This document shows positions 19,107 through 51,766 of a stretch of DNA of 64,000 bases, in pieces. The notes beneath the pieces were generated by a model. The model saw nothing but the letters and a program-made list of their open reading frames with translations, did not search any database and had not been told where the DNA came from. Position numbers and translations under genes: made by a program. How positions within the stretch are numbered: the first letter of the stretch is position 1; every line of letters begins with the position of its first letter. The stretch is from Ipomoea triloba (Eukaryota > Streptophyta > Magnoliopsida > Solanales > Convolvulaceae): contig NC_044916.1 in NCBI RefSeq assembly GCF_003576645.1, forward strand, positions 27,580,596-27,644,595. The letters are read 5' to 3'.

Positions 19107-19243
19107 ACGTTGTGGTCCAGTGGCATCAAACCCTTCCCTTTATACGGGAGGTGGTGGGCACTCTTGTGCTTCAATAGGTTGAGAAAGTAGTTATGAACAG
19201 ATACTGCATTGTAATAGAGTTAGTAGTATTCAAAAAAAAAAAA
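19107..19243 (+). mobile_element. tRNA-related SINE
   Basis: The copy reads acgttgtggtccagtggcat (A-box-like), ggaggtggtgggca (decayed B-box area), then ttcaataggttgagaaagta and atgaacagatactgcattg. It ends with a poly(A) tail, and it shares its 3' part with the SINEs at 30957, 43044, 44604 and 51650. Confidence 0.75.
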
Positions 19244-20132
19244 AGTAGGCTTCATTTACTTTAATTTTTCAGTTCTCGAGTGCAATATTAATTCGGGAAA
19301 TTCTCTATTTTTCTATTAAAATAAAATAAAATAGACAATACGTTTATTGGTATATATATCTCTACTTTCTAAATTAAAGAGATTCATTTTTTTTTTTTGT
19401 TTCTTCTCTAATTTTTCATTTTTAAAAAATATATAACTTAAAATTTCTCCATTTAATAAATTATTATGAACTAAAAAAAAAACTCTTTTTATTGAACCAT
19501 GTGAATTTTATATAAAGCCTTAGGCAGTTGCAACGTGCCAGCAGTGTGACCACTCACTACTGCCACTAATAATTATCAAGGTAGTATATATTATCACTGG
19601 CATTACATTAATTCTAATTATTAATTGACTTCCCAAAGATATCCACATTTTAATATACCTTTGGTGGCCATGTGCTTTGTGTTTAATCTCCATTAAGTCA
19701 GCCTGTACTATACTAGTATTATTCCTTCTTTTATTCTTTGAACTCTTTTTTTTTTTTCCCTTTTAAATTTTTAATATAATACTAATTATTATTATTTATT
19801 GAAAAAGAGTGTCACGTCAATTGCCTTGTAGGATATTATCAATGTTAAATGGGAATTAATTGGTTTCTGGACTTCAATGTACGAAAATTACGAATTGATA
19901 AGTTTAATTGGAATTTTAAAAAATTTAATGGCTAATTGACACCTTAACTTGTATAGAGTTTAGGGGTCTACGTGACCCTTTTATTTTTGATGTATTTACT
20001 CACTTATTATATAAAAATAAGTGTAATTTTTTTTTTGAAAGGTAGCACTTTTTAACAAATATGTAATACGGAGTACTTTTAAAGAAAAATGTATTACTTT
20101 TCAATTAATATCATATTATCATTGGCTCAATC
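19244..20132. other. AT-rich spacer before the LTR element
   Basis: No gene or clear repeat is seen. Several poly-T/poly-A runs are present. Confidence 0.4.
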
Positions 20133-20137
20133 ATAAA

Positions 20138-20529
20138 TGACGGTAATAATGTGTTTACCGGTATATTATTTGAGTATTTGAATGTTTGAATACCATATTG
20201 AGCGTAGTGCTCAGTGTACAAGTGAGTTCAGTATGTATTGTCTAAGTTCAAGTGTCGTCTCCACTATGTGGTTGTGAGTCCTTTTATTCCTTTCAGCTCA
20301 GTAACGGAGCATTGATGAGGAGTTGAACGTTGGACATCAATACCTAGGTGTTGAATGCTAAGGAGCTTAACGTTGGTCATCAATGCCGAGGAGCTGAACG
20401 TTGGCCATCAATGCTGAGGAGTTGGACCGTTGCGCATTGATGCTGAGGAGTGAGGTGTCTTGGTAGTTTGAACGGCAACTGTCTTGGTTATGACGACGGT
20501 TCCGGGTCGGGTACCCAATTACCCTGTCA
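20138..20529 (-). repeat. 3' LTR (by transcription direction)
   Basis: Partner of 29539-29930, with the same length and the same internal 27-bp tandem series. It is preceded by the target duplication ATAAA at 20133-20137. Confidence 0.97.
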
Positions 20530-20548
20530 CCAGCCCCCCACTCCCTAG
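20530..20548 (-). promoter_or_regulatory. Polypurine tract
   Basis: On the minus strand, AGGGAGTGGGGGGCTGG lies directly before the 3' LTR, where the plus-strand primer of an LTR retrotransposon is expected. Confidence 0.75.
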
Positions 20549-20740
20549 CTAGCGAGAATGGCTGAGGTAGTTAGGGAGTATCAGCCGGTGTTTGAATGGA
20601 TCGCCCTTGGAACTTGTGGAAGAAGATTTGGTATGTCGAATTCTGGAAGGAAATTTTACCGGAAGGAAACTTCACATATTTATGGAATATTTCCTAATCT
20701 CCCTGCGATTTTGTTTCCGTGTATGGGCCGGCTTCATATG

Positions 20741-20749
20741 TATATAAGG
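20741..20749 (+). promoter_or_regulatory. TATA box of the first antisense gene
   Basis: The motif tatataagg lies about 70 bp before the ATG at 20810. It is followed by a CT-rich leader (cagaatctgtgtctttcacccc) typical of a transcription start region. Confidence 0.5.
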
Positions 20750-20809
20750 ACCCTCTCAGAATCTGTGTCTTTCACCCCTCCTCATTACGTTAGCTCAGCT
20801 GGTTTTATC

Positions 20810-21089
20810 ATGAGTCCAAAGAGAGCGAGTGCTGCTGAAGCAGGTGCGGGGACGAAGAGGCGCCGATCGTTCCGTTTGATGGAGCTGGCTAGACGGGAGA
20901 AGTTGAAGCAGAGGAAGGAGCGTGGGCACGAAGTTGGTGATACCGTTGAGGATCCACTAACCCTTCCGTCAGAAGGATGCCGTGAAGCAACTGAAACAAG
21001 TTCCCGTGGAAGAAAGTATGGCCATCGTCCTTGTGCCTGATGATGAGCTTCCTTTGGCAGTGGAATATCCCAAGTCCTCGAAGACCTAA
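20810..21089 (+). pseudogene. Small basic antisense-strand protein, frameshifted
   Basis: The ATG at 20810 opens a basic frame (MSPKRASAAEAGAGTKRRR, RREKLKQRKER) that ends as an ORF at 21040. Around 20970 the protein-like sequence continues in the +1 frame (KDAVKQLKQVPVEES, LVPDDELPLAVEYP) and ends at 21087-21089. So one small frameshift appears to break an original ORF of about 90 codons. Poly(A)-signal-like aataaaataaaa follows at about 21151. I do not recognise a family. The KR-rich head suggests nucleic-acid binding or nuclear targeting (inference). Confidence 0.5.
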
Positions 21090-21239
21090 AGTCTTGAGTA
21101 GGAGTTAGTAGTTTGAAGTGTAATAGTGCGTGATGGCATTGAATGTTATTGGAATAAAATAAAAAGTTTTACTTCGAACCGTTCCCTTCCCTTTTTTTAT
21201 TTTTTATTTTTTATTTTTTATTTTTTTTTTATCCTGACT

Positions 21240-21335
21240 TCAGCCCCGTGCCTGGTCACGGTGTTGTAACTTCGGCACGGGGCCGAAGCTACGTGACGTG
21301 ACCTCGGCACTGGGCCGAGATGCTGGGCGTGACTT
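21240..21335. repeat. CTTCGGC/CCTCGGC hairpin cluster 1
   Basis: Two to three short inverted repeats (cttcggcacggggccgaag, cctcggcactgggccgag) lie between the two antisense genes and are followed by a poly-T run. Confidence 0.8.
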
Positions 21336-21527
21336 CGATTTTTTTTTTTTTTGGTTCATCTTCCCTAATTATCCGGGATAATTCAGGATGTGAATCATCA
21401 TAACCTTCTTAGACAATCCTTAGAATCTTGCAAAATATATGCCACTTGCAAAATATATGCCAGGATTTGTTTTAGGAAATCCCATTGATACTAGGAATAT
21501 TGGGTTTCCTTATACAAAACCCTAGGG

Positions 21528-21536
21528 TTATAAAAA
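21528..21536 (+). promoter_or_regulatory. TATA box of the main antisense gene
   Basis: The sequence gggttataaaaaccc sits about 30 bp before a pyrimidine-rich 5' UTR stretch (cttctccttcttttgtactc). This reads as a compact TATA promoter. The leader then runs to a strong donor at 21605 (cctg|gtaagt). A matching acceptor at 21849 (gctgatag) lies 43 bases before the ATG at 21893, so the 5' UTR probably contains an intron of about 245 bp. Confidence 0.6.
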
Positions 21537-21659
21537 CCCTTCTCCTTCTTTTGTACTCAACCCTTCTTTCTTTACCGATTGCATTCCTACTCCCAACTAT
21601 CCTGGTAAGTTCAATGTTTAGGTCACATAGCGTGACTCAACCCTTTTTTTTTTTTTTAC

Positions 21660-21770
21660 GCACTCCCACCTCGGCACCGTGCCGAGGTCGCATGACCTCG
21701 GCGCTGGGCCGAAGTCACGCGGTACCGTGACTTCGGCGCTGGCCGAGGTCACGCGGTACATTTTTTTTTT
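21660..21770. repeat. CCTCGGC hairpin cluster 2
   Basis: At least three hairpins (cctcggcaccgtgccgagg, cctcggcgctgggccgaag, cttcggcgctggccgagg) lie inside the predicted 5' UTR intron of the main antisense gene. Poly-T runs stand on both sides. Confidence 0.8.
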
Positions 21771-21892
21771 CTTTAGCTCAGGGCTATGCTTGTGTTGAAT
21801 TGACAAGTTTGTTTTTGTTTTTTCGTTTTTCTTTCTGTTGTGCTGATAGGTTGGTGATTGTGCCTACCCATAACCAGGTTAGTTCCTCTATT

Positions 21893-23926
21893 ATGGATTC
21901 GAATTCAAATTCGTGCTCGGAGTCTTTTGACAATGAATCTTCATCTTATGATGGTGAAGATACATTGACCTATGGTGGTGACACCGAGGCATTGGCCCAT
22001 GGTGATGACACCGAAGACACCTCCTCTCTGTCTTCTTCTCCTTCCGAAGAAGACACCGTAGATCTCGATCCTCTTGCCCCTTCTGTTAGTTGTAAAAGGA
22101 AGAGGCGCCAGATCTCGTACTCCCCCATAGATAGTTCACTTATCGAGAGTACCTATCGCCGTCTAAAACCTGATGATGTAGAAGATATCCAAGGTCTAGT
22201 GTGTGGGAATGTTAGAATTGTCCTCCCTGGGCATGATGTCAGCATCATGGAACCCCCGGAGCCCTCCTTTTTTGGTGTTCACCTGTTGTCCGTGCAGGTA
22301 GGACTTAGGTTTCCCCTTCACCCTTTCCTGATTGAGTTTCTGAATTTTTATGAAATAGCCCCAGGTCAGCTTGCCCCAAACGGTCACCAGGTTATCGCAG
22401 GATTTCTTTCTGTGTGTAGCCAAAAACGAATGAAACCCTCCTTAGGTCTCTTCCAATCGTTGTTTAGAGTCATGAGGGCACCTAGAGAGGGTAAGGGTTT
22501 CGTGTGTATCTCCTCTATGCCCCGTAAGCAGCTTTTCGATGATCGTCCCTCCTTCAACAAAGACTGGAAGTCTAGGTTCTTCTTTGTCTCCCTAGGTATC
22601 CCTTCTCCTTTTGCTGTCGCATGGGGTACCCGAGTTAGATGCCATCCAACTTTGGACGAGAGTCCAGATATGCTTAGGAAGGTCAAGAAACTTCTGAAGG
22701 GTGGTCCTTTTAAGGTTGTCGGGAGTACTTCTGAGTGGTGGCTTCAGAATTTGGGGTTTAAGAGGATCCGGCCAGCTGCCCTTGACGTACCTGGTACCCC
22801 TCTCGGTGTTTAGCTGTTTCTTGCATGCTGTTTTCTTGTAACTGTTTGCCATAACTTGAAATTGTTTGCAGGTGCTATGTCGTCGAAAGGTGCTATATCG
22901 TCAACAGCTGCTCGGTACTTGTCGCAAAGTGGGCAGTATCCTTCCAAGAGAAACAAAACTGACAAAAAAGGAAAAAAGAGTCAAGCCTCCACATCTGGTG
23001 GAGGAGCTTGTAACCTGACGCTTCCGCGAACAAGATCTTCAACTCAGCCAGGATCTTCAATTTCGGATGTGGATCCCTTGCCCGAGGGATTGTCTGCCCA
23101 GCCCCCCGAGCAAGGGGAAGCCTCGCCAGTTCCACGCATTCGAACCAACTTGGTCCGGCTCGGTATGGATGTGCTCCCCGGGAAATCCTTCTTAGAAGGT
23201 ACTATTGACGCCCCCGAGCTTGTTCGTAGCCTCGTCACCCACAGAGATGCAGAAATTCTTGAAGAGCAGGGTTTGGTTGCGCTACGGGAGCGATATTGCA
23301 AAATGGCGATGGAGTCTGTGTTGATAGGGGACAGTCTTCATTTGCAGTACGAAGCTATGCTCCGCGATTCTCTTTTGCAGAGGAAGAAACTCGCAGAAGA
23401 CCAACTGCTTTTGGATACCGAGTTGAAGAAACTGAGGGAAGAGAACATAACACTGAAAACTGATCACTCAAAGTTAGAGCAGAAGCTGAAGGATGAGCGA
23501 AAGGGGCACCAGGAGACTCGTGCTACTGTCACCAAGCTGGAAAAGGCACGAGAGACGTACAAGCATTCATCTAAGTTCAAGGATGACGTCCGGGAGTTCA
23601 TGAGGACTCCAGAAGCTGTAGAGGAGTTTTCTGCGTCCGCGGCGGGTCGGGCTGCACTCGAGGCACAGACTCAGCTAGCATTCGACCTTGGAATGTTCAC
23701 CATGCAGCAGCAGATTTATCCGGTGCTTAAGGGAGAGAATCCTAATTTTGATCCGGAGGCTGTGGGCTTGCCTAAGTTTATGGAGAATCCCGACCCTGAG
23801 TCTGAGGAGTACGACATATCCCCTGTTGATGCTGATGATGCGGGAGTGTCTGATCGTCCTGACAACACCAACACCGCTGCCCAAGACGCTGCTGAGGATC
23901 CCACCACTGCTACGAAGGATGCTTAG
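21893..23926 (+). CDS. Antisense-strand retroelement gene, putative gypsy-type transposase-like protein
   Basis: Two coding exons, 21893-22805 and 22872-23926, join in frame through a GT/AG intron (donor CTCG|GTGTTT, acceptor TTGCAG|GTGC) to give 655 residues. Exon 1 has an acidic Ser/Asp-rich start, a basic KRKRRQ patch, and then a domain with FPLHPFLIEFLNFYEIAPGQ, SEWWLQNLGFKR and similar motifs. I recognise this as the plant putative gypsy-type transposon domain (Transposase_28, PF04195). Exon 2 is Ser/Pro-rich and then a long coiled coil (about 23360-23570, LLLDTELKKLREENITLKTD), ending in an acidic tail. It lies opposite to gag-pol, between integrase and the 3' LTR. Such antisense extra ORFs are known in Tat-lineage elements; their function is unknown. 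A TATA box and a 5' UTR exon precede it. Confidence 0.85.
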
Positions 23927-24039
23927 CATATCTGATTTATTTTTCGTTGCTATCCACATTCGCACTGTTTTTTGAATACTAGTTTCGCAGTTATTCGTGT
24001 GTTGAACACTTGTATTGTTTTTTCGAATTATCTTCTTGT

Positions 24040-24392
24040 ATATTTTTTTTTTTTTTTTTTTTTTTTTGCCCTCGGCACTGGGCCGAGGTGGGACCTCGGC
24101 GTTGTGCCGAGGCTTTACCTCGGCGCTGGGCCGAGGTTTTACCTCGGCATTGTGCCGAGGTGGAAACCTCACCTCGGCTTTGTGCCGAGGTGGTGTGCCG
24201 AGGTGGAAACCTCACCTCGGCTTTGTGCCGAGGTGGTGTGCCGAGGTGGAAACCTCACCTCGGCTTTGTGCCGAGGTGGTGTGCCGAGGTTTCACTTCGG
24301 CACAATGCCGAGGGAAACCTCGGCATTGTGCTAAGGTGGAAACCTCACCTCGGCTTTGTGCCGAGGTGGGACCTCGAAATTTTTTTTTTTCA
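24040..24392. repeat. CCTCGGC hairpin cluster 3, large array
   Basis: About ten copies of CCTCGGCNNNNNGCCGAGG (7-bp stem, 5-base loop) lie between the 3' ends of the integrase ORF and the antisense gene. Poly-T runs flank the array on both sides. A unit of about 43 bp (one hairpin plus tggtgtgccgagg and a spacer) is repeated three times almost perfectly. Long ORFs across it are by-products of the repeat. Confidence 0.92.
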
Positions 24393-24488
24393 ACTTATAT
24401 GATGCCCCTCTTTATATAAAAAACATGGAATTTTATTCGTCTGGGTTGGACGGACCAAGACAACCTGGACAGACCAGGACTTGACTTC

Positions 24489-25871
24489 CTAATGATAAAA
24501 TTTTGTTAAGTGTTCTGAATTCCATATCCTATCAATCAACCTGCCACCTACTGTCGTCAACTTGTAAGTTCCTGGGCGAATCACTTCGTCAATGATGTAC
24601 GGACCCTCCCATTTTTTCGCGAACTTGCCTCCTTCCAAGGGTTGACTGGCTTCTCTTCTTCTCAAAACATAATCACCTACTTGAAAGTACCTGGGTTTAG
24701 CTTTGGCGTCATGATAGGACTTCAACTGCCTGTTGTAGTTTTCCATCCTACAGAACGCAGCTTCTCGCCTTTCATCTATGAAATTGAGATCGGTTCCCTG
24801 TTGGATCTCATTTTGCTCTGCCTCGTACTCTTCCATCCTTCTACTTGGTATCATCGCCTCTGCTGGAGCTCGAGCTTCGAACCCGTAACTCAATGCGAAA
24901 GGAGTTTCACCCGTAGCCCTCCTTGGGGTTGTGCGATAGGTCCAAAGGATGCTATCCAGTTCTTCAACCCACGCCCCGCCAGCTGCTTCCAATTTCCTCT
25001 TTAAACCGTCAAGGATGGTTCTATTGGCATTCTCTACCTGACCATTCGCCTGTGGGTATGACACCGCCACCCGACTATGCTTGATGCCCCATTCCGTCAA
25101 AAAGTCTGAAAACTCTCTACCTTCGAATTGACGTCCGTTGTCCGTGATTACTTGGATGGGGATGCCGAAGCGGCACAGTATGTTCTTCTCCACGAACTTT
25201 TTACACCTGGCTGCTGTGATACTAGCCAGCGGTTCAGCTTCCACCCATTTGGTGAAGTAGTCAATGGCCACGATAATGTACTTCCGGCTTCCCGAGCCCG
25301 TGGGAAGGGCTCCTACCAAGTCTATTCCCCATCTCGAGAATGGAATTGCGGTGCTCACCGGAGTGTAGTTGGTTGCGGGTCGTCCTGGCAATGTCTGGAA
25401 CTCTTGACACTTAGGGCATCGCTTGGCGTATTCTGCGCAATCCTTCAACATCTTTGGCCAGAAGAAACCTTGCAGCATGATGCGTCGAGCTATGGTGTAT
25501 GCTCCTTGATGCGCGGAGCACACTCCTTCGTGGACTTCTCTCATCATCAGCTCTGCTTCGTTAGGGTACACACACTTCAAGAGTGTGCCATTATAGGATC
25601 GTTTATATAACTTGTCTTCCAATATCACGTAGCTGGGTGCCCGCAACCTTGTTAGCTTTGCATCTTGCTCGTCCACTGGTAAAGTGCCTTCCTTCTTGTA
25701 CTTTGTGATGTGGTCAATCCAACATGGCTCTCTGGATTGCACGGGGCAAACCCATGAGATATCGATGCTGGATGTCTCCAAATCCTCAACCCGAGCAATC
25801 TTACGAATGTGGCCAGGGATCCCAGTGCTCAGCTTGGAGGGCCAACCTTTTAGAGGCGGTGACCGCAGCAA
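24489..25871 (-). CDS. Integrase ORF
   Basis: This ORF overlaps the end of the RT ORF in another frame. It has the HHCC zinc-binding region (His 114, His 121, Cys 152, Cys 155). The catalytic core carries the triad Asp 184 (WGIDLVG), Asp 244 (ITDNGRQF) and Glu 280 (NGQVENANR), with exactly 35 residues between the second and third. A GPY/F-type module follows near the C-terminus (KKWEGPYIIDEV, PGTYKL). There is no chromodomain. The first 30 or so residues (SKLSTGIPGHIRKIARVEDLE) look like the linker that normally follows RNase H, so the deletion join lies at about 25830-25855. Confidence 0.93.
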   Translation of the reverse strand: MLRSPPLKGWPSKLSTGIPGHIRKIARVEDLETSSIDISWVCPVQSREPCWIDHITKYKKEGTLPVDEQDAKLTRLRAPSYVILEDKLYKRSYNGTLLKCVYPNEAELMMREVHEGVCSAHQGAYTIARRIMLQGFFWPKMLKDCAEYAKRCPKCQEFQTLPGRPATNYTPVSTAIPFSRWGIDLVGALPTGSGSRKYIIVAIDYFTKWVEAEPLASITAARCKKFVEKNILCRFGIPIQVITDNGRQFEGREFSDFLTEWGIKHSRVAVSYPQANGQVENANRTILDGLKRKLEAAGGAWVEELDSILWTYRTTPRRATGETPFALSYGFEARAPAEAMIPSRRMEEYEAEQNEIQQGTDLNFIDERREAAFCRMENYNRQLKSYHDAKAKPRYFQVGDYVLRRREASQPLEGGKFAKKWEGPYIIDEVIRPGTYKLTTVGGRLIDRIWNSEHLTKFYH

Positions 25872-28335
25872 ACACTGTTTTCTCCACGGCAGTGTACCGT
25901 AGTTCTGCGTCGTGTAGAGCCTTGCTCACATAGTAAATGGGACGCTGAGTCCCTCCTTCCTCTTTGACCAACACGGAGCTGATCGCACCCTGTGATATAC
26001 CCAGGTATAAGAGTAAGGTTTCACCTGCCTCTGGTTTCGCAAGCAGTGGCGGGGATAGCAAATATCTTTTCAAGTCATCGAAAGCCGACTGACACTCTGG
26101 GGTCCATTCAAACCCCTTATTCTTCTTTAGTATCTGGAAGAAAGGGAGGGATCGTTCGGCCGATTTAGATAGAAATCGACCCAAAGCCGCTAAGCGACCG
26201 TTGAGTCTTTGGACTTCTTTAATGGACCGCGGGGGTTCCATGTCAAGAATGATTTTTACCTTTTCTGGGTTTGGTTCTATCCCATTTCTAGTGACCATAA
26301 ATCCCAGAAACTTGCCCCCATTGACTGCGAAAGTGCATTTTTTAGGGTTCAAGCGTAAATTAAAATTTCTCATAATAGAAAATACCTCGTTAAGGTCTTT
26401 GACATGAGAGGCACCTCTGCGGCTTTTGACAATCATGTCGTCTACATATGCCTCCATGTTTCGCCCCAGCACTTTTCCAAACAACTTGGCCACCATCCGG
26501 GTGTAAGTTGCGCCTGCGTTTTTGAGGCCGAACGGCATGACCAAGTAGCAAAAAATGCCTTCTGGGGTGGTGAACGCAGTCTTCTCAGCATCCTCCTCAT
26601 GCATGAATATCTGATGGTACCCACGGAAGGCATCCATGAAGCTCATCAACTCACATCCTGCCGTCTCATCTACTAGCTGGTCTATGTTTGGCAAGGGGAA
26701 TCGATCCATAGGGCAGGCTCTGTTGAGATCTGTATAATCCACACACATTCTCCATGTGGAGCCTTTTGGGGCCAGGACTATGTTGCTCAACCACACGGGG
26801 TAGTAGATCTCCTTGATATGTCCTGCCTGTGTCAACGCGAACACCTCGTTTTTCACAAAGTCCCTTCGTTCAGCCGACATATATCGCTTTCTTTGTTGTA
26901 TTGGTTTCTTGGTAGGGTCCACGGCTAACTTGTGAGTTATGATGTTTCGATTGATACCTGGCATGTCTTCTGGACCCCACGCAAAAACTTCTTTAAACTG
27001 TCGGATGACTTCGACTATCTGGGCTCTTAGTTCGGGTGCCAACCCAGTACCAATCTTTACAACCCTATCTGCTCGTGCAGGATCGACCACCACGTCTTCT
27101 GTTTCAGATGCAGGCTCGGCGCGGGGCCAACCCTCCTCTTCTCTCAGCACTTTTTCTGCGATGGTGTGGACCTGCAGATCTTTCTGTCCAATCTTCTTGC
27201 ACGCTTTGACGTAGCAGCTACGAGCTGCTCTTTGATCTCCTCTCGCAACTCCTATCCCGTATGGCGTGGGAAACTTCATGCACAGGTGCTCCATCGAAAC
27301 TATCGCCTTCAAATCTTCCAGAGCCGGCCTCCCCAGTATGATGTTATGGGCACACGTGAGTTTCACAACGATGAACTCCATGTTTATTTTGGAGGTGTTG
27401 GGGCTCACACCTATCTCTACTGGTAGTACCACAGATCCCTCCGTCTCTATTGAATCCCCAGTAAAACCAGAAAGTGGAGTCCGTACCTCTTTGAGTTGAT
27501 TTCTGGGGAGTCCCAGTTTGGTGAAAGCGTCGTAGTACATCACGTTGACTGAGCTTCCGGTGTCTACGAGTATGCGATGCACAATGCTGTCGTTAATCTC
27601 CATCTTGATCACCAACGCATCTCGGTGAGGCAGTGGACCTTCTGGGAGGTCATCGTCAGAGAAGGTAATGGCTTCCCTCCTCTGCTGGAGGTCATCGTCA
27701 GAGAAGGTAATGGCTTCCCTCCTCTGCTTTTTCCCCTTTGGAAGGCTGACCACGGCTTCCCTCCTCTGCTTTTTCCCCTTTGGAAGGCTGACCACCTCAC
27801 CTACATATAACTGGCGACTCCACTTCTTCCTTTCTGCTTGTGTGTCTCCGTCTGCAGGACCTCCGTAGATGAAGTGTATGGTCTGCTTCTTGTGTTTCCT
27901 GGGCTCTTCTGTGTCTTTGTCAGAGAGATCTGTTACTGTAACTTGGTCGTGCTCCCTTTTCTTACCACTCGAGGATGACGGCTCGGAGCTGTCATCCTTC
28001 TTCCAAACATTTTTTGGTAAATTACGCGGAGGTTGTTGCTGGCTTGACTTTTGGCCCGGCTTTTGCTGGCCTGACCGTTTGACGAACTGTCTGAAGTATC
28101 CCCTCTGGATGAGCTCTTCAATCTGGCGTTTTAACACATTGCATTCATCGGTATCATGGCCCACCTGCCTATGGAATCTGCAATACTTGGATTGATCCGC
28201 ATTTGGGGAGACTTTCATGCACTCCTGCGGAAATTGCACGATCCCCATGTCTTCGGCTTGATTTAGGATTACGCTAACTGGGTGAGTCAGCGGTGTCAGA
28301 TGTCGCAACGGGATGAGGCGAGGTCGGTCATCTCT
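25801..28335 (-). CDS. Gag zinc knuckle, protease and reverse transcriptase ORF
   Basis: The frame is open from just after the N at 28336; it has no ATG at its head (first usual start-like codon TTG at 28308), so it is read as the continuation of gag. Residue numbers are from that TTG. 43-56 is a knuckle of CX2HX4HX4C type. 172-221 is a basic linker with two tandem duplications (SLPKGKKQRREA and ITFSDDDL). 249-252 is the protease DTGS. RT follows, with MCVDYTDLN at about 521 and the active-site YVDD at 621-624. RT is complete up to TAVEKTVFAAVTASK (about 820). The frame then runs for 15 residues of out-of-frame sequence and stops. The RNase H domain that should follow is missing. Confidence 0.93.
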   Translation of the reverse strand, partial: RDDRPRLIPLRHLTPLTHPVSVILNQAEDMGIVQFPQECMKVSPNADQSKYCRFHRQVGHDTDECNVLKRQIEELIQRGYFRQFVKRSGQQKPGQKSSQQQPPRNLPKNVWKKDDSSEPSSSSGKKREHDQVTVTDLSDKDTEEPRKHKKQTIHFIYGGPADGDTQAERKKWSRQLYVGEVVSLPKGKKQRREAVVSLPKGKKQRREAITFSDDDLQQRREAITFSDDDLPEGPLPHRDALVIKMEINDSIVHRILVDTGSSVNVMYYDAFTKLGLPRNQLKEVRTPLSGFTGDSIETEGSVVLPVEIGVSPNTSKINMEFIVVKLTCAHNIILGRPALEDLKAIVSMEHLCMKFPTPYGIGVARGDQRAARSCYVKACKKIGQKDLQVHTIAEKVLREEEGWPRAEPASETEDVVVDPARADRVVKIGTGLAPELRAQIVEVIRQFKEVFAWGPEDMPGINRNIITHKLAVDPTKKPIQQRKRYMSAERRDFVKNEVFALTQAGHIKEIYYPVWLSNIVLAPKGSTWRMCVDYTDLNRACPMDRFPLPNIDQLVDETAGCELMSFMDAFRGYHQIFMHEEDAEKTAFTTPEGIFCYLVMPFGLKNAGATYTRMVAKLFGKVLGRNMEAYVDDMIVKSRRGASHVKDLNEVFSIMRNFNLRLNPKKCTFAVNGGKFLGFMVTRNGIEPNPEKVKIILDMEPPRSIKEVQRLNGRLAALGRFLSKSAERSLPFFQILKKNKGFEWTPECQSAFDDLKRYLLSPPLLAKPEAGETLLLYLGISQGAISSVLVKEEGGTQRPIYYVSKALHDAELRYTAVEKTVFAAVTASKRLALQAEHWDPWPHS

Positions 28336-28336
28336 N

Positions 28337-29453
28337 GAATTGCTGCCTTCGAATCGAAGTCATATACGTTGTTGACTTCTTTTTTCCATTTGCTTAAGAA
28401 GTCTCGCAGGCTTTCTCCCTTATCCTGTTTTACCCCACCGAGATGTGAGAATGGTTTCTTATGTTGTATACTCCCTGAGAAATAAGACAAGAAACTTTTG
28501 GATAGCTCTGCAAAAGTTTGAATTGATCCGTCCGGAATTGTGTTAAACCAATCTTGAGCAGTTCCGTCCAAAGTGGACAAGAACGCTCTGCACATGATGG
28601 CATCGCTTACCCCAATCATGACCATGGCTGCCTTGTATCTTGTCATATGGGTACGCGGATCTGAAGTGCCAGTGTAGGCCTTGATGGTGGGTAGTCGAAA
28701 GTCTTTTGGAAGAGGAACTTCCATTATGTCGGGAGAGAATGGAGCGGCCATTCTTACCTCCGGTTCTGGTGAGTGTTCTCTTGCTTCTACTTTCTTTTCC
28801 AAATCATCTATCTGTCTTTGGAGTTTTTCCACCAGGCCTTCTTGTGGTGTTTTGTGTCTAGTGGAGTGACGCGGAGCCAATCCACCAGATTCGCCCATCC
28901 TTTCTCCGGATGGTCGTTTGGTTACTGCCTTTCCTGCTTGGGCATGGGGACCTCTATTGGAGGATCCTTGCACCCCCAGCCGATCTCGGACAGATCTAGA
29001 AGCCGCCGGACGTTCTCGAACAGATCTGGAAACTGGTCGAGTTCCACCTTCCTGTCGTTGAGTTCTGTTTTGCCTCGGAGATTGCACTTCTTCCTCCAGA
29101 GGAGGTGGTGGCGGTAACATCTGGCCTTGCATTCCTGCGACTAGTTGGGCCATCGTCGCCGCCGCCTGTTGGATGACCTGCGCTGCTGCCTGAAGATCCA
29201 CCACCTGGGCGGGAGCAGCAGCTGGGAGGGGAGTATGGCCACCACCATGGTTGTTGTTGAGTTGGCTAGTGCGGCCACCACCATGGTTGTTGTTGAGTTG
29301 GGTACGGAGGTCACCTTCTCTGCGGTTATTGTTGTTAAGTTGGCTGCGAAGGTCACCTCCACGGTTACTGTTGAGCTGCTCACGAAGATCACCCGAGGGG
29401 TGACCCTTGTTCACCTGACTAGGTGTATGCGAGCTGCTGGATCCAGATGCCAT
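28337..29453 (-). pseudogene. Retrotransposon gag, N-terminal and core part, interrupted at an N
   Basis: Gag forms the virus-like particle. The frame opens with MASGSSSSHTPSQ. It has an Asn/Gly/His-rich tandem region (QLNNNHGGG repeats), a charged coiled-coil-prone stretch (about residues 210-230), and the Retrotrans_gag core (RAFLSTLDGTAQDWFNTIP, SFLSYFSGSI, ESLRDFLSKWKKEV). It then runs through the single unknown base at 28336 and stops 16 codons later, at 28296. The next part of gag continues in another frame in the adjacent ORF. Family comparison suggests that a segment of the gag C-terminal core is missing exactly at the N, so the break may come from the assembly rather than the element. 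Confidence 0.85.
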
Positions 29454-29518
29454 TGCTCGTGATGAGATGAACTGAGTGGTTTGAGATTTTTGTAAATTTA
29501 GCCTGAGATCTGATCTCG

Positions 29519-29538
29519 GCTCTCAATGAGGGCACCAA
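29519..29538 (-). promoter_or_regulatory. Primer-binding site
   Basis: Directly inside the 5' LTR the minus strand reads TTGGTGCCCTCATTGAGA. It begins with TGG one base after the LTR, as a tRNA-primed site should. I cannot name the priming tRNA. Confidence 0.65.
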
Positions 29539-29930
29539 TGACGGTAATAATGTGTTTATCGGTATATTATTTGAGTATTTGAATGTTTGAATACCATATT
29601 GAGCGTAGTGCTCAGTGTACAAGTGAGTTCAGTATGTATTGTCTAAGTTCAAGTGTCGTCTCCACTATGTGGTTGTGAGTCCTTTTATTCCTTTCAGCTC
29701 AGTAACGGAGCATTGATGAGGAGTTGAACGTTGGACATCAATACCTAGGTGTTGAATGCTAAGGAGCTGAACGTTGGTCATCAATGCCGAGGAGCTGAAC
29801 GTTGGCCATCAATGCTGAGGAGTTGGACCGTTGCGCATTGATGCTGAGGAGTGAGGTGTCTTGGTAGTTTGAACGGCAACTGTCTTGGTTATGACGACGG
29901 TTCCGGGTCGGGTACCCAATTACCCTGTCA
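29539..29930 (-). repeat. 5' LTR (by transcription direction)
   Basis: 392 bp, TG...CA in plus orientation, 99.5 percent identical to its partner by eye (differences at ttatcgg versus ttaccgg and gctgaac versus gcttaac). It contains an internal tandem series of about 27 bp with the core gaggagctgaacgttgg and catcaatgc, repeated about four times. Confidence 0.97.
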
Positions 29931-29935
29931 ATAAA

Positions 29936-30956
29936 TAATAGGATTTTCATCACAAGTTTACAATATCTACAAATCTAATAAGAGACAATATATAAAGTTA
30001 GGCTCCTGGCGACTAAAAAATGTTGGTGTAATTGTTTAATGAAATGAATGGTTCAAATTATTTCAATTTTAGTACTTTTTATTTTCTTATTTTATCCTCT
30101 ATTGTATCATTTACTTTTTCTAAATATCCTTGTAACTTCGTTAGTGTAAACTTTAGTAACCAAATATTCCATTAACTATTTATTCTTTTAACGAGGTTTG
30201 CTCCTCGCCCTGTGATCCTAGCCGGCAAAGGACCACAATGAGGTAAACCAACCTAGGTTACCCATAGCTGACCGGCTCAAACCTAAGGGTTTGAGGATCG
30301 AACCTCCAACCTCTCGGCTGTAGGTAGAGGACTCTTACCATTTTTAACTTACTCATTGAATTTCATAAGGAAGGTCTTAGGTTCGAACATCATCCCAATC
30401 AAAAATGACATACTTGTTGAACATATATTATGAATATGTTAGAGTGTATTAAAAAAATACAATATAAAATTTAACATGAACTTTGGTCAATTAATTAGCC
30501 AAACTATATACATAGCATTCAAAGTTGAGCATCAAATAGTGAAGATGGTTATTAAAAAAAAAATTGTGAAGATGGAGACAAGGACAATGCTAACCAAAAG
30601 AGAATTAAGAAGACTGGGAGAAATTCAAAACAAAAGTAATATTTATTTAGATTGTCATGTTTAGACTAAATATTTAGAGTTTAGACTATCGATTTTACAA
30701 AGTTACAAACATTTATCTTAGTAACAATTATAATGAATCTCAGCTCTTATATTATATTGCATTCATATACTTTGAATTACCTATTTAAATAAACAAATTC
30801 GGCATTCAATTACCTATGCATGAACTTATCCTATATAATCTTGCATTGATATACTTTGAAATACTTGTTTAAATATAAACATTGGGTATTAGCCAATGCC
30901 CATTCGCGCAAGGTTCATGTTAAACTAGTATCAATATAAGTAATAATCAATTTTAC
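29936..30956. other. Spacer, no gene seen
   Basis: AT-rich. A weak tRNA-SINE-like or repeat stretch (gctcctcgccctgtgatcct ... aacctcccaacctctcggct-like) occurs at about 30190-30340. No coding exon is recognised. Confidence 0.3.
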
Positions 30957-31117
30957 TCAATTGTGGTCTAGTGGCACCCGGTTTACACTCTCACATTGAA
31001 GGGAGTGGGTTCGAGCCTTAGTGGAGGCGACTGTTGACTCTTTGTGCTTCACTATGTTGAGAAAGTAGCTATGAACAGATACTACATTGTAATAGAGTCA
31101 GTAGTACTCAAAAAAAA
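30957..31117 (+). mobile_element. tRNA-related SINE with 12-bp target duplication
   Basis: It reads ttgtggtctagtggcaccc (A-box-like), gtgggttcgagccttag (B-box-like), then ttgagaaagtagctatgaac and a short poly(A). Perfect target duplications aatcaattttac lie at 30945-30956 and 31118-31129. Confidence 0.92.
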
Positions 31118-31129
31118 AATCAATTTTAC

Positions 31130-40591: not shown

Positions 40592-43500
40592 ATGAAGTTC
40601 ATGAAACTTGGATCCAAGCCTGATTGCTTCCAATCAGAAGGGAACAACCTCAGGTAAGATGTTTTGCTAGCCTAGCCTTCTCAAAAGTTTATTACTAGCG
40701 GTCGTCATTGTTAGTATTGTGGTGGATTAATAGCAGTTTGTTTATCTGATTTTTTTTTTCTTTTACTATTTTAAATTTTCTGGGGTTCTGTTGATTTTGT
40801 GTGTAGTTTTATCCCTCTAATCCTTCCTTTTCCATTGAAACACAAATTCATCTTCAAATTTGAAGAGAGAATATGTGCTAGCTGAGTTCCGTCGGAAAGT
40901 GATATTGAAAAATGTGATCTATTCCTCTAAAATATCTTTGGTTGTTTGCATATTGTTTTTCATTGAGATCTCAGTGAATTTGATGGACTTCAAATTTTAA
41001 AATGGAATTTTGTAATACATTTGCTTATACTTATCTGTCGTGTTTTCTTCACGCGTAGACATGTAGTAATGTCGTTATTAAGCTGCTTATTAGTTCATTT
41101 TCCTTTAGTAAATTTCCGAAACTGAGAAGCTATCCTGCAGATATGTTGCTTCTGAGTTGGCATCCGACATCATCATTCATATTGGGGATGTGAAATTTTA
41201 CTTGCATAAGGTACGATGATAACTACATGTTTACTTTTAAATAGCGGTAAATGTTTTGTTTCAGCAGTTTTGCTTTGTTAGACTAGTGGAAGCATTAAAA
41301 AACTTAAAGCATCCTTCTGTTGTTATTTATTTTCATTTTCAATTTATCTTTGAGGGAACGGTGAATGAGAAGCCCTGCCAGTATTTAATAATATTGTGAA
41401 GATGTCTCTGCTCGGTTCTTTCAAAAGCACACATAAATTTAACAGTGGCTGTTTGAAATTACTTCCATTTATCCATTTGTTCATAGAGCCTATATCTTTT
41501 TTATTAAGAAGTTTAACCTGAATATGAGATAGGATTTAGTAGAACTAACAAGAACATCGATTACTAGTGCTAACATATAGTTCTGTGATTGTCTGAAATA
41601 GATATCTGCTATTTAGGGTGAGTATGAAGTTATGAACTAATTTTCCGAAGCATGCATTTAACAATCTTTATGCGAAGGAACCTTTTCCCGTTCCCCTTTT
41701 TGACCTGTCAATACTTCCCATCAGTTCAATTTTCGCGTTGAATACTTGATACTGATTGACTGCCCAAACTGGTGCTGCAGTTTCCTCTTCTGTCCAAGAG
41801 TGCTCATTTGCAAAAGCTGGTTACGAACTCAAATGAAGGAAATGGTGATGAAGTGCACATTCACGACATTCCCGGAGGGCACACTGCCTTTGAAACATGT
41901 GCCAAGTTCTGCTATGGTATGACCGTAACACTGAATGCTTACAATCTGATTGCAGCACGATGTGCTGCTGAGTATCTGGAAATGAATGAAAGTGTCGAGA
42001 AAGGAAACCTCATTTACAAGATTGATGTTTTCTTGAACTCGAGCATACTTAAAAGCTGGAAGGATTCGATAATAGTTCTTCAAACCACAAAATCTCACTT
42101 GCCTATGTGTGAGGAGTTGAAGTTGGTCGGCCATTGCGTTGAAGCTATAGCTTCCAGGGCATGTATTGATGTTTCCAAGGTGGATTGGTCCTATACATAT
42201 AACCGGAAAAAGATTCACGAGGAGAATGACATTGATCCCAACTTGCACGGTGCAAGAAGCCGGATGGTGCCAAAGGATTGGTGGGTTGAAGACTTGTCTG
42301 AACTTGAAGTAGTAGATACATATAAACGCGTTATTATGAGTATCAAGAACAAAGGGATTGTCTCTGATGAAGTCATCGGAGAAGCTCTGAAAGCTTATGC
42401 TTCGAGAAAGTTGCAAGGCTTTGGCAAGGGTCTCATCCAGAACAATGATGCTTCGAAATATAGCTCAATATTGGATACAGTTGTGTGGCTTCTGCCTGCT
42501 GAGAAAGGCAGCGTCTCTTGTGGTTTCTTACTCAAATTGTTGAAACTATCCATTTCACTTGATTTAGGAGAACATACCAAGGGGGAACTAGTCAAAAGAA
42601 TCGGACATCAACTGGAGGAGGCCTCTGTGAATGATCTTCTGATTCGAGCCTCAAATGGGGATACAACAAGCCTGTACGATGTCCACGTTGTCCAGCAAAT
42701 GCTGAAAGAGTTTATGTCGCGTGATCAAGACTCTGATGAAACTAGCGGTGAGATCAACCATGCTCAAAAGCCAGGCATTTTATCCGAAGCATCAAAACTG
42801 ATGGTGGCAAAGTTAGTAGATGGGTACCTTGCTGGGATTGCAGAAGACCCCAATCTGCCCTCGTCAACATTTGTTGGTTTGGCTGAGATGGTCTCAAGCT
42901 TTCCCCGCCCTTCTCACGATGGACTTTACCGTGCAATTGACATGTACCTCAAGGTGAGATTTCTTCACCCCCCACCCTTTTTCTTAAGATATATAATACA
43001 ATGCAAAATCCCAAAATAAATATTTTAACAATCAGTATCTAGTGGTCTAGTGGCACCCGGTTGCACCCCACATGGAGGCGATATTGGCTACTTGTGCTTC
43101 ATTTGGTTGAGAAAGTAACAATGAACAGATGAACAAAACAGATACTACATTGTAACAGAGTCAATAGTACTCAAAAAAAAAAAAAACAAAAACAAAAACA
43201 ATCAGTATCTAGTCTTTAAACATGCTATTGTGACTAATGAATGCTAGATTGAACATTTTCTGATGCATATATAATAAGTGGTATTGCTTTAGAGGCACCC
43301 TGGGATCAGCAAGAGCGAGCGGAAGAGAATATGCAGGCTGATGGACTGCAAAAAGCTCTCGGTAGAGGCCTGCATGCACGCTGTTCAGAACGAGAGACTC
43401 CCTATGCGAGTGATCGTACAGGTTCTGTTTTTCGAGCAAGTGAAGGCCAATGCAGCATCTTCTGGTTGCAGCACTCCCGATCTTCCCAGAGCCATCAAGG

Positions 43501-44603: not shown

Positions 44604-44757
44604 GCTAATAACCTTGTGGTCTAGTGGCACCTAGTTGCACCCTCATGTGGAAGAGGGTGGGTTTGAGTCTCAATGGAGGCGTTGTTGTCTTTTTGTACTT
44701 CAATAGGTTGAGAAAGTAGTTATGAACAGATACTACATTGTAATTAGTAGTATTAAA
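44604..44757 (+). mobile_element. tRNA-related SINE with 16-bp target duplication
   Basis: It reads ccttgtggtctagtggcacc, gtgggtttgagtctca, then ttcaataggttgagaaagta and an A-rich tail. The flanks aaagtgtttgttactt at 44588-44603 and 44758-44773 match (the first bases overlap the tail). Confidence 0.9.
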
Positions 44758-44930
44758 AAAGTGTTTGTTACTTACAATGACGAGTGTAATACTTGTGAGA
44801 AAAAAAAAGTAATACTTTTAAATCAAAATATAAAAGATAAATTTTTTTGTATTACATTTTTTTATAAGTAACAAACACTTTATTCATAATTAGTATTATA
44901 ATTTTTCGTATATGTATTATATTTTCATAG

Positions 44931-51645: not shown

Positions 51646-51766
51646 TAATACCTTGTGGTCCAGTAGCACCAAGTTGCTTACTTATGAGTCTTAATGGTAG
51701 CGACATTGACTCTTTGTATTTCAATAAGTTGAGAAAGTAATTATAAACATATACTGCATTGTGTAA
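51646..51766 (+). mobile_element. Degraded SINE copy
   Basis: It reads taccttgtggtccagtagca, then ttgagaaagtaattataaac and atatactgcattg. The B-box area is shortened and the poly(A) tail is gone, so this is an old copy of the same family. Confidence 0.65.

Follow-up and report, generated by a model that had tools for sequence, protein, structure and literature searches.

An array of CCTCGGC palindromes beside the pol genes of an Ipomoea triloba retrotransposon is read here, with moderate confidence, as a Retand-type hypervariable tandem region, in which palindromes with a CGG–CCG core stand in three clusters bracketed by T-runs and are probably cis-regulatory DNA. In form the clusters seem to be one version of a kind of module, for control or of tandem repeats, already known from other plant retrotransposons. 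The analysis covers one element in one assembly, and homopolymer lengths in assemblies are possibly inexact; ‘the window’ refers throughout to the whole 64,000-nucleotide stretch of DNA that was analysed, which is AT-rich (36% GC).

The array is carried by a long terminal repeat (LTR) retrotransposon of the Ty3/gypsy type that is read in the minus-strand sense. The main parts of the element, with the evidence for each, are as follows:

20138–29930, minus-strand sense: Ty3/gypsy LTR retrotransposon, Retand-like (LTR pair by self-BLAST, TSD and ends read from the sequence, Pfam domains)
20133–20137 and 29931–29935: TSD ATAAA, 5 bp, flanking the element (read from the sequence)
20138–20529, minus strand: 3′ LTR (self-BLAST), including 28-bp tandem repeats
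24489–25871, minus strand: integrase ORF (Pfam PF17921 and PF00665), its 3′ end toward the main array
25801–28308, minus strand: protease–RT–RNaseH ORF (ORF list and Pfam)
28296–29453, minus strand: gag ORF (Pfam PF03732, 1.1e-8)
29539–29930, minus strand: 5′ LTR (self-BLAST)

The two LTRs, at 392 bp each, are 99.5% identical by self-BLAST and the ATAAA duplication is present at both flanks, so the element is probably a recent insertion. Pfam matches on the ORFs place protease–RT–RNaseH before integrase, which is the gene order of Retand and of Ty3/gypsy elements, and an antisense TRP28 ORF, a further criterion for Retand, lies between pol and the 3′ LTR. The region from POL to the 3′ LTR (3,959 bp), the LTR and the internal region (9,009 bp) are all inside the ranges given for Retand in passages of Vicient 2025 (2,933–6,566 bp, 315–1,194 bp and 7,380–12,869 bp, respectively; PMC11963269). 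As judged from its sequence, the element fits the Retand lineage on every feature tested, namely gene order, antisense TRP28, region sizes and tandem array. Pol of the present copy may be interrupted, since its RNaseH and integrase portions lie in two ORFs of different frames that overlap at 25801–25871; the gag ORF has one undetermined base at 28336. The 28-bp tandem repeat of the LTRs (3.4 copies, at 20354–20450 and 29755–29851) carries GCYRAGG half-sites, and one of its copies has CAATGCCGAGG in common with the array unit at 24295, possibly by chance. Short dispersed repeats that are SINE-like and approximately 76–92% identical were observed at 19160–19241, 31037–31119, 43073–43182, 44614–44760 and 51686–51762, the first two of which terminate in A-runs.

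The array itself is placed as follows:

24070–24366, no strand assigned: main palindrome array, 10 full units and 3 lone right arms

Its ten units have the form CCTCGGC-N5-GCCGAGG, eight of them being perfect, one (at 24295) having one mismatch and one (at 24318) having two, and the lone right arms are found at 24197, 24240 and 24283. When this pattern was sought throughout the window with up to three mismatches, 19 matches were found against 0.25 expected, and none of 100 shuffles reached 19. The main array accounts for 13 of these matches (the 10 units and three partial registers on the lone arms) and two smaller clusters for a further four; the remaining two, at 30312 and 63790, have three mismatches each. 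Neither LTR holds a match to the full palindrome at up to three mismatches. Counted with no more than two stem changes, 14 units of this type are present in the element. RNA folding of the main array gave z-scores of −18.9 on the plus strand and −16.7 on the minus strand (100 shuffles each). Tandem units of 24 bp (3.9 copies) and 43 bp (3.3 copies) were found, the latter being a higher-order unit whose copies at 24151–24290 are perfect, which indicates that part of the main array is a recent tandem duplication. Two ORFs converge on the array, the integrase ORF ending at 24489 on the minus strand and the antisense ORF ending at 23926 on the plus strand. A preliminary description of this DNA had reported about ten hairpins between two convergent retroelement genes, with the loops gttgt, tttgt, gctgg, actgg and attgt and with poly-T on both flanks, and these points stand: the number of units is far above chance, the hairpin potential is borne out by the folding scores, all five loops are present and the flanking runs comprise 25 T and 11 T. 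It had also placed a cttcggc…gccgaag variant in the array; this is actually found at 21270–21288, 2.8 kb away, and the only CTTCGGC of the array (24295) faces GCCGAGG. The 43-bp higher-order unit and the two smaller clusters go beyond what had been described.

A search of Rfam with positions 20000–30000 at E ≤ 0.1 returned five matches far below their gathering scores, the best being mir-624 (40.5 bits against a gathering score of 100), and these were rejected as chance arising from the hairpin shape. In viral contigs, six stretches fitted the integrase pattern, none of them encoding a relative, and no match to the two-hairpin pattern was found. A single locus among genome contigs, 26% identical and situated on a 5.4-kb contig of a bacterial MAG, was not used.

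The two smaller clusters lie near the start of the antisense gene, the features of which are listed together with them:

21270–21320, no strand assigned: cluster 1, with units c1a at 21270 and c1b at 21302 and a truncated arm near 21333; fold z −3.6 (plus strand)
21529–21534, plus strand: TATA box candidate of the antisense gene (read from the sequence)
21605 (GTAAGT donor) to 21848–21849 (AG acceptor), plus strand: candidate leader intron of the antisense gene (inferred)
21669–21748, no strand assigned: cluster 2, with units c2a at 21669 and c2b at 21696 and the 4-base-loop unit c2c at 21731; fold z −7.5 (plus strand)
21893–23926, plus strand: antisense gene with a TRP28/Transposase_28 domain and a C-terminal part (Pfam PF04195, 1.6e-13)
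22794–22871, plus strand: predicted in-frame intron of the antisense gene (sequence prediction)

The antisense gene, located between integrase and the 3′ LTR, is covered by two ORFs. Four proteins in total pass E 0.001 with the first of these, the best relative being an Ipomoea nil protein (P0001; 54% identity over 68%) and the second coming from Cuscuta europaea (41% over 33%), which points to a probable host in Convolvulaceae; of 7,996 candidates scored for the second ORF, none is a homologue at E 0.001. Joining 21893–22793 to 22872–23926 preserves one frame of 651 residues, and the junction region is similar to P0001 across the same point; the gene is probably spliced, with its intron at 22794–22871. 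The predicted leader intron, for which alternative acceptor candidates exist near 21781 and 21877, would take out cluster 2, along with the three ATGs that lie downstream of 21540 and ahead of the start at 21893. A candidate for a second small antisense gene was observed at 20741–21160 (TATA at 20741, ATG near 20810, ORF end at 21040 and AATAAA near 21153); the ORF at 20558–21040 has no Pfam match.

The three clusters bracket the antisense TRP28 gene: the TATA at 21529 is preceded by cluster 1, the GTAAGT donor and the acceptor enclose cluster 2, and the main array follows the antisense stop. The compensated CTTCGGC/GCCGAAG stem is borne by c1a in cluster 1. In cluster 2, c2b and c2c make up one long foldback, in which the arms GCCGAAG and CTTCGGC match each other, as would also be expected from inverted duplication or templated correction. 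The loop ACTGG is common to c1b and unit u1 of the main array, and the loop GCTGG to c2b and unit u3; this recurrence of loops in different clusters argues for a common descent of the clusters. The observed/expected ratio of CpG is 0.83 in the main array, 1.03 in cluster 1 and 1.22 in cluster 2 against 0.73 in the element, a modest enrichment, and 14 merged stretches of the element pass a CpG island test, including those with the main array and cluster 2; cluster 1 lies in none of them. The spacer of cluster 1 at 21289–21301 (CTACGTGACGTGA) has ACGT and TGACG cores, a type of core that plant bZIP factors recognise.

Each cluster is flanked on both sides by a T-run:

24043–24067, plus strand: run of 25 T, separated from the main array by 2 bases on its left side
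24380–24390, plus strand: run of 11 T, separated from the main array by 13 bases on its right side
21221–21230 and 21339–21352: T-runs of cluster 1, 39 (left) and 18 (right) bases from its edges
21644–21657 and 21761–21770: T-runs of cluster 2, 11 (left) and 12 (right) bases from its edges

There are six A/T runs of at least nine bases in the 9.8-kb element; all six are T-runs, at distances of 2–39 bases from the six edges of the clusters. No further run appears at a threshold of eight, and one (21192–21198) appears at a threshold of seven. The window outside the element has 40 A/T runs of at least nine, 22 of T and 18 of A. When six runs of the same lengths were placed at random, in a test that was framed after the pattern was seen, none of 1,000,000 placements supplied every one of the six edges with a run, whether at 40, 60 or 100 bases. 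An equally good explanation of the T-runs is that they have no role of their own and were inherited with a single duplicated module.

The preliminary description had further stated that the loop bases vary while the stems stay paired, and had taken this to suggest that pairing is kept. The first part is correct for the loops, in which all five columns vary among the 11 distinct units; however, 5 of the 14 stem columns vary too, and uncompensated changes are present in two of the ten array units (T–G in u8; C–A and G–T in u9). Covariation was examined in 12 of the 14 units (u6 and u7 being omitted as repeats of u5), 11 of which are distinct. One both-sided change was found in 88 cells, which 219 of 500 shuffles matched, and the share of paired cells was 92.0% versus a shuffled mean of 91.8%. 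Across the 14 units, each of the seven stem changes is C>T or G>A, the kind of change expected from deamination of methylated C. Five stem pairs are not Watson–Crick pairs, and G–U rescue would apply to two of them on the plus strand and three on the minus strand. Sliding the partner as a control lowered the paired share to 31–44%, which establishes that the unit is a palindrome, and only that. Maintenance of pairing by selection is not supported, covariation being no better than in shuffled units. The lack of covariation above shuffles, alongside the lack of a G–U strand bias, was counted for DNA rather than strand-specific RNA; the missing covariation, like the C>T or G>A changes, is equally compatible with no constraint and with a constraint at the DNA level.

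Several rival explanations have to be set against a regulatory role, and three of them (neutral minisatellite, transcript boundary and source of small RNA) are not mutually exclusive, and the confidence given to each reflects their overlap. On the neutral view, the array would be a palindromic repeat that is unstable, is tolerated in a hypervariable region and has grown by slippage and strand transfer, its stems being matched without selection. Templated repair or template switching, by which quasi-palindromes are corrected, would keep the stems matched. The perfect 43-bp triplication, the covariation at shuffled level and the restriction of all seven stem changes to C>T or G>A agree with such a neutral origin, as does the finding, in passages of the literature on Retand and Tat elements, that their tandem arrays differ in sequence and copy number; it is harder to accommodate the fact that the unit stands at three places around a single gene and has a T-run at each of the six edges, and we regard a purely neutral minisatellite as a serious possibility that falls somewhat short of even. 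Simple tandem expansion, which the preliminary description had raised as the alternative to kept pairing, does account for a part of the array (the 43-bp unit, with copies 100% identical), but clusters 1 and 2 and the T-runs are not explained by expansion alone. The strongly folded transcript might instead be processed to siRNAs that silence the element. The folding scores on both strands are in keeping with this, as is the excess of small RNA at palindrome clusters reported for maize Sireviruses in passages of the literature. Silencing would be a cost to the element, however, so a small-RNA source would explain the presence of the array only as a by-product, and the microRNA matches in Rfam are far below gathering scores; we consider this explanation rather doubtful.

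It is also conceivable that the hairpins and the T/A-runs stall polymerase, such that the convergent pol and antisense transcripts end before they overlap. Indeed the main array sits between two 3′ ends, and AATAAA at 24437 (minus strand) and TTGTA at 24010 and 24036 (plus strand) are each on their own gene's side of it. AATAAA and TTGTA are nevertheless short motifs of a type that readily turns up by chance in AT-rich sequence, transcription of full-length genomic RNA has to continue as far as the 3′ LTR, and neither cluster 1 nor cluster 2 is situated at the end of pol or of the antisense gene; we consider a two-way transcript boundary unlikely. Signals for packaging or dimerisation of retroelement RNA are usually found in the 5′ leader, and the array is far from it; in addition, covariation does not exceed that of shuffles and G–U rescue shows little preference for the minus strand (three versus two). 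The stable hairpins on the minus strand, which is the genomic one, are the point in favour of a packaging or dimerisation signal in genomic RNA, which we judge to be highly improbable.

Returning to the reading of the clusters as a Retand-type hypervariable region with a probable cis-regulatory role, the units may have arisen and spread inside the element through strand transfers made in the course of reverse transcription. Reverse transcriptase would stall at the GC-rich hairpins, the A-runs in the RNA would provide short homology for re-annealing, and tandem slippage would then have enlarged the main array; the observations behind this proposal are the three clusters, the loops that they have in common, the T-run edges and the 43-bp perfect triplication. 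The feature that is kept would be a double-stranded palindrome, a type of site that is bound by protein, more than an RNA stem. Position and form suggest that the clusters may regulate the antisense gene in cis, comparably to the promoter regulation proposed for the CGG–CCG repeated motifs of Sireviruses, and may also form a border where the 3′ ends of this gene and of pol face each other. By analogy with work on Sireviruses, RNA that reads through the array would form strong folds and might supply small-RNA silencing, at a cost to the element. Among other points that count against this overall explanation, the LTRs are without the full palindromes that define Sirevirus motifs, the CpG enrichment is only modest, and the perfect 43-bp triplication fits neutral expansion.

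Passages of Vicient 2025 (PMC11963269) report antisense TRP28 ORFs in 97% of Retand clusters and TRP28 in nearly all recent Retand elements, with a role described as unknown, and tandem arrays in about half of Retand elements, with units of 8–100 bp and mostly adjoining pol or the 3′ LTR. The present element resembles this description in its antisense TRP28 gene, in the array beside pol and in unit lengths of 24 and 43 bp; it differs from Retand as described in those passages in that its units are palindromic, one unit forms several clusters and the clusters are bracketed by T-runs. The main text of that paper does not contain Ipomoea, Convolvul- or Solanales, and ‘palindrom’ is present in its reference list only. 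Palindromic arrays in Retand are not described in passages of PMC11963269, PMC3290532 and PMC6911290, and none was found in the open-licence literature, where the results were mostly listings; six hairpin strings, sought as letters in the open-licence literature, had no match. Hypervariable tandem repeats in the 3′UTR of Tat/Ogre elements, for which an origin by strand transfer has been hypothesised (Macas 2009, as cited in passages of PMC7004042), are similar in being tandem, in following pol and in their proposed origin by abnormal strand transfer; in the present case, in contrast to the repeats as described there, a palindromic unit is dispersed to three sites in one element.

The repeated motifs (RMs) of Sireviruses are, in passages of Bousios et al. 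2010 (PMC2829016), palindromes present in 8–32 copies, of which 12 of the 13 listed have a CGG–CCG core; they are found upstream of TATA and upstream of ENV, and their clusters define CpG islands in most such elements. The present palindromes, set beside those passages, have the same core and many copies (14 units, where at least eight are required), with one cluster upstream of a TATA, here an internal one, and near a gene placed after pol. The host is, however, a Ty3/gypsy and not a Ty1/copia element, no palindromes are in the LTRs, the gene concerned is antisense TRP28 and not env, CpG enrichment is modest and the clusters are bracketed by T-runs. Since the superfamily is a different one and the LTRs have no palindrome, the array is not a Sirevirus motif by membership. 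Passages of a maize survey describe Ty3 elements as generally without an obvious peak of palindromic structures (PMC10760457), which makes the present gypsy case unusual, not categorically new.

A more specific proposal, which we put forward as speculative and improbable, is that the palindromes are operators of the element's own TRP28 protein, dimers of which would bind CCTCGGC-N5-GCCGAGG at the promoter, the leader intron and the 3′ border of their own gene and so create an accessory-protein feedback circuit in a Ty3/gypsy plant element; binding would perhaps extend to the GCYRAGG half-sites of the 28-bp repeats in the LTR. If true, this would give TRP28 a target. A defined palindromic site that recurs in the promoter, in the leader and at the 3′ border of this gene provides specific DNA with which binding can be tested. 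Given the likeness to the motifs of Sireviruses, CGG–CCG palindrome clusters of the same kind would be shared by two superfamilies of retrotransposons, and the modules bracketed by T-runs offer a case for the birth of tandem repeats, and later of satellites, inside retrotransposons.
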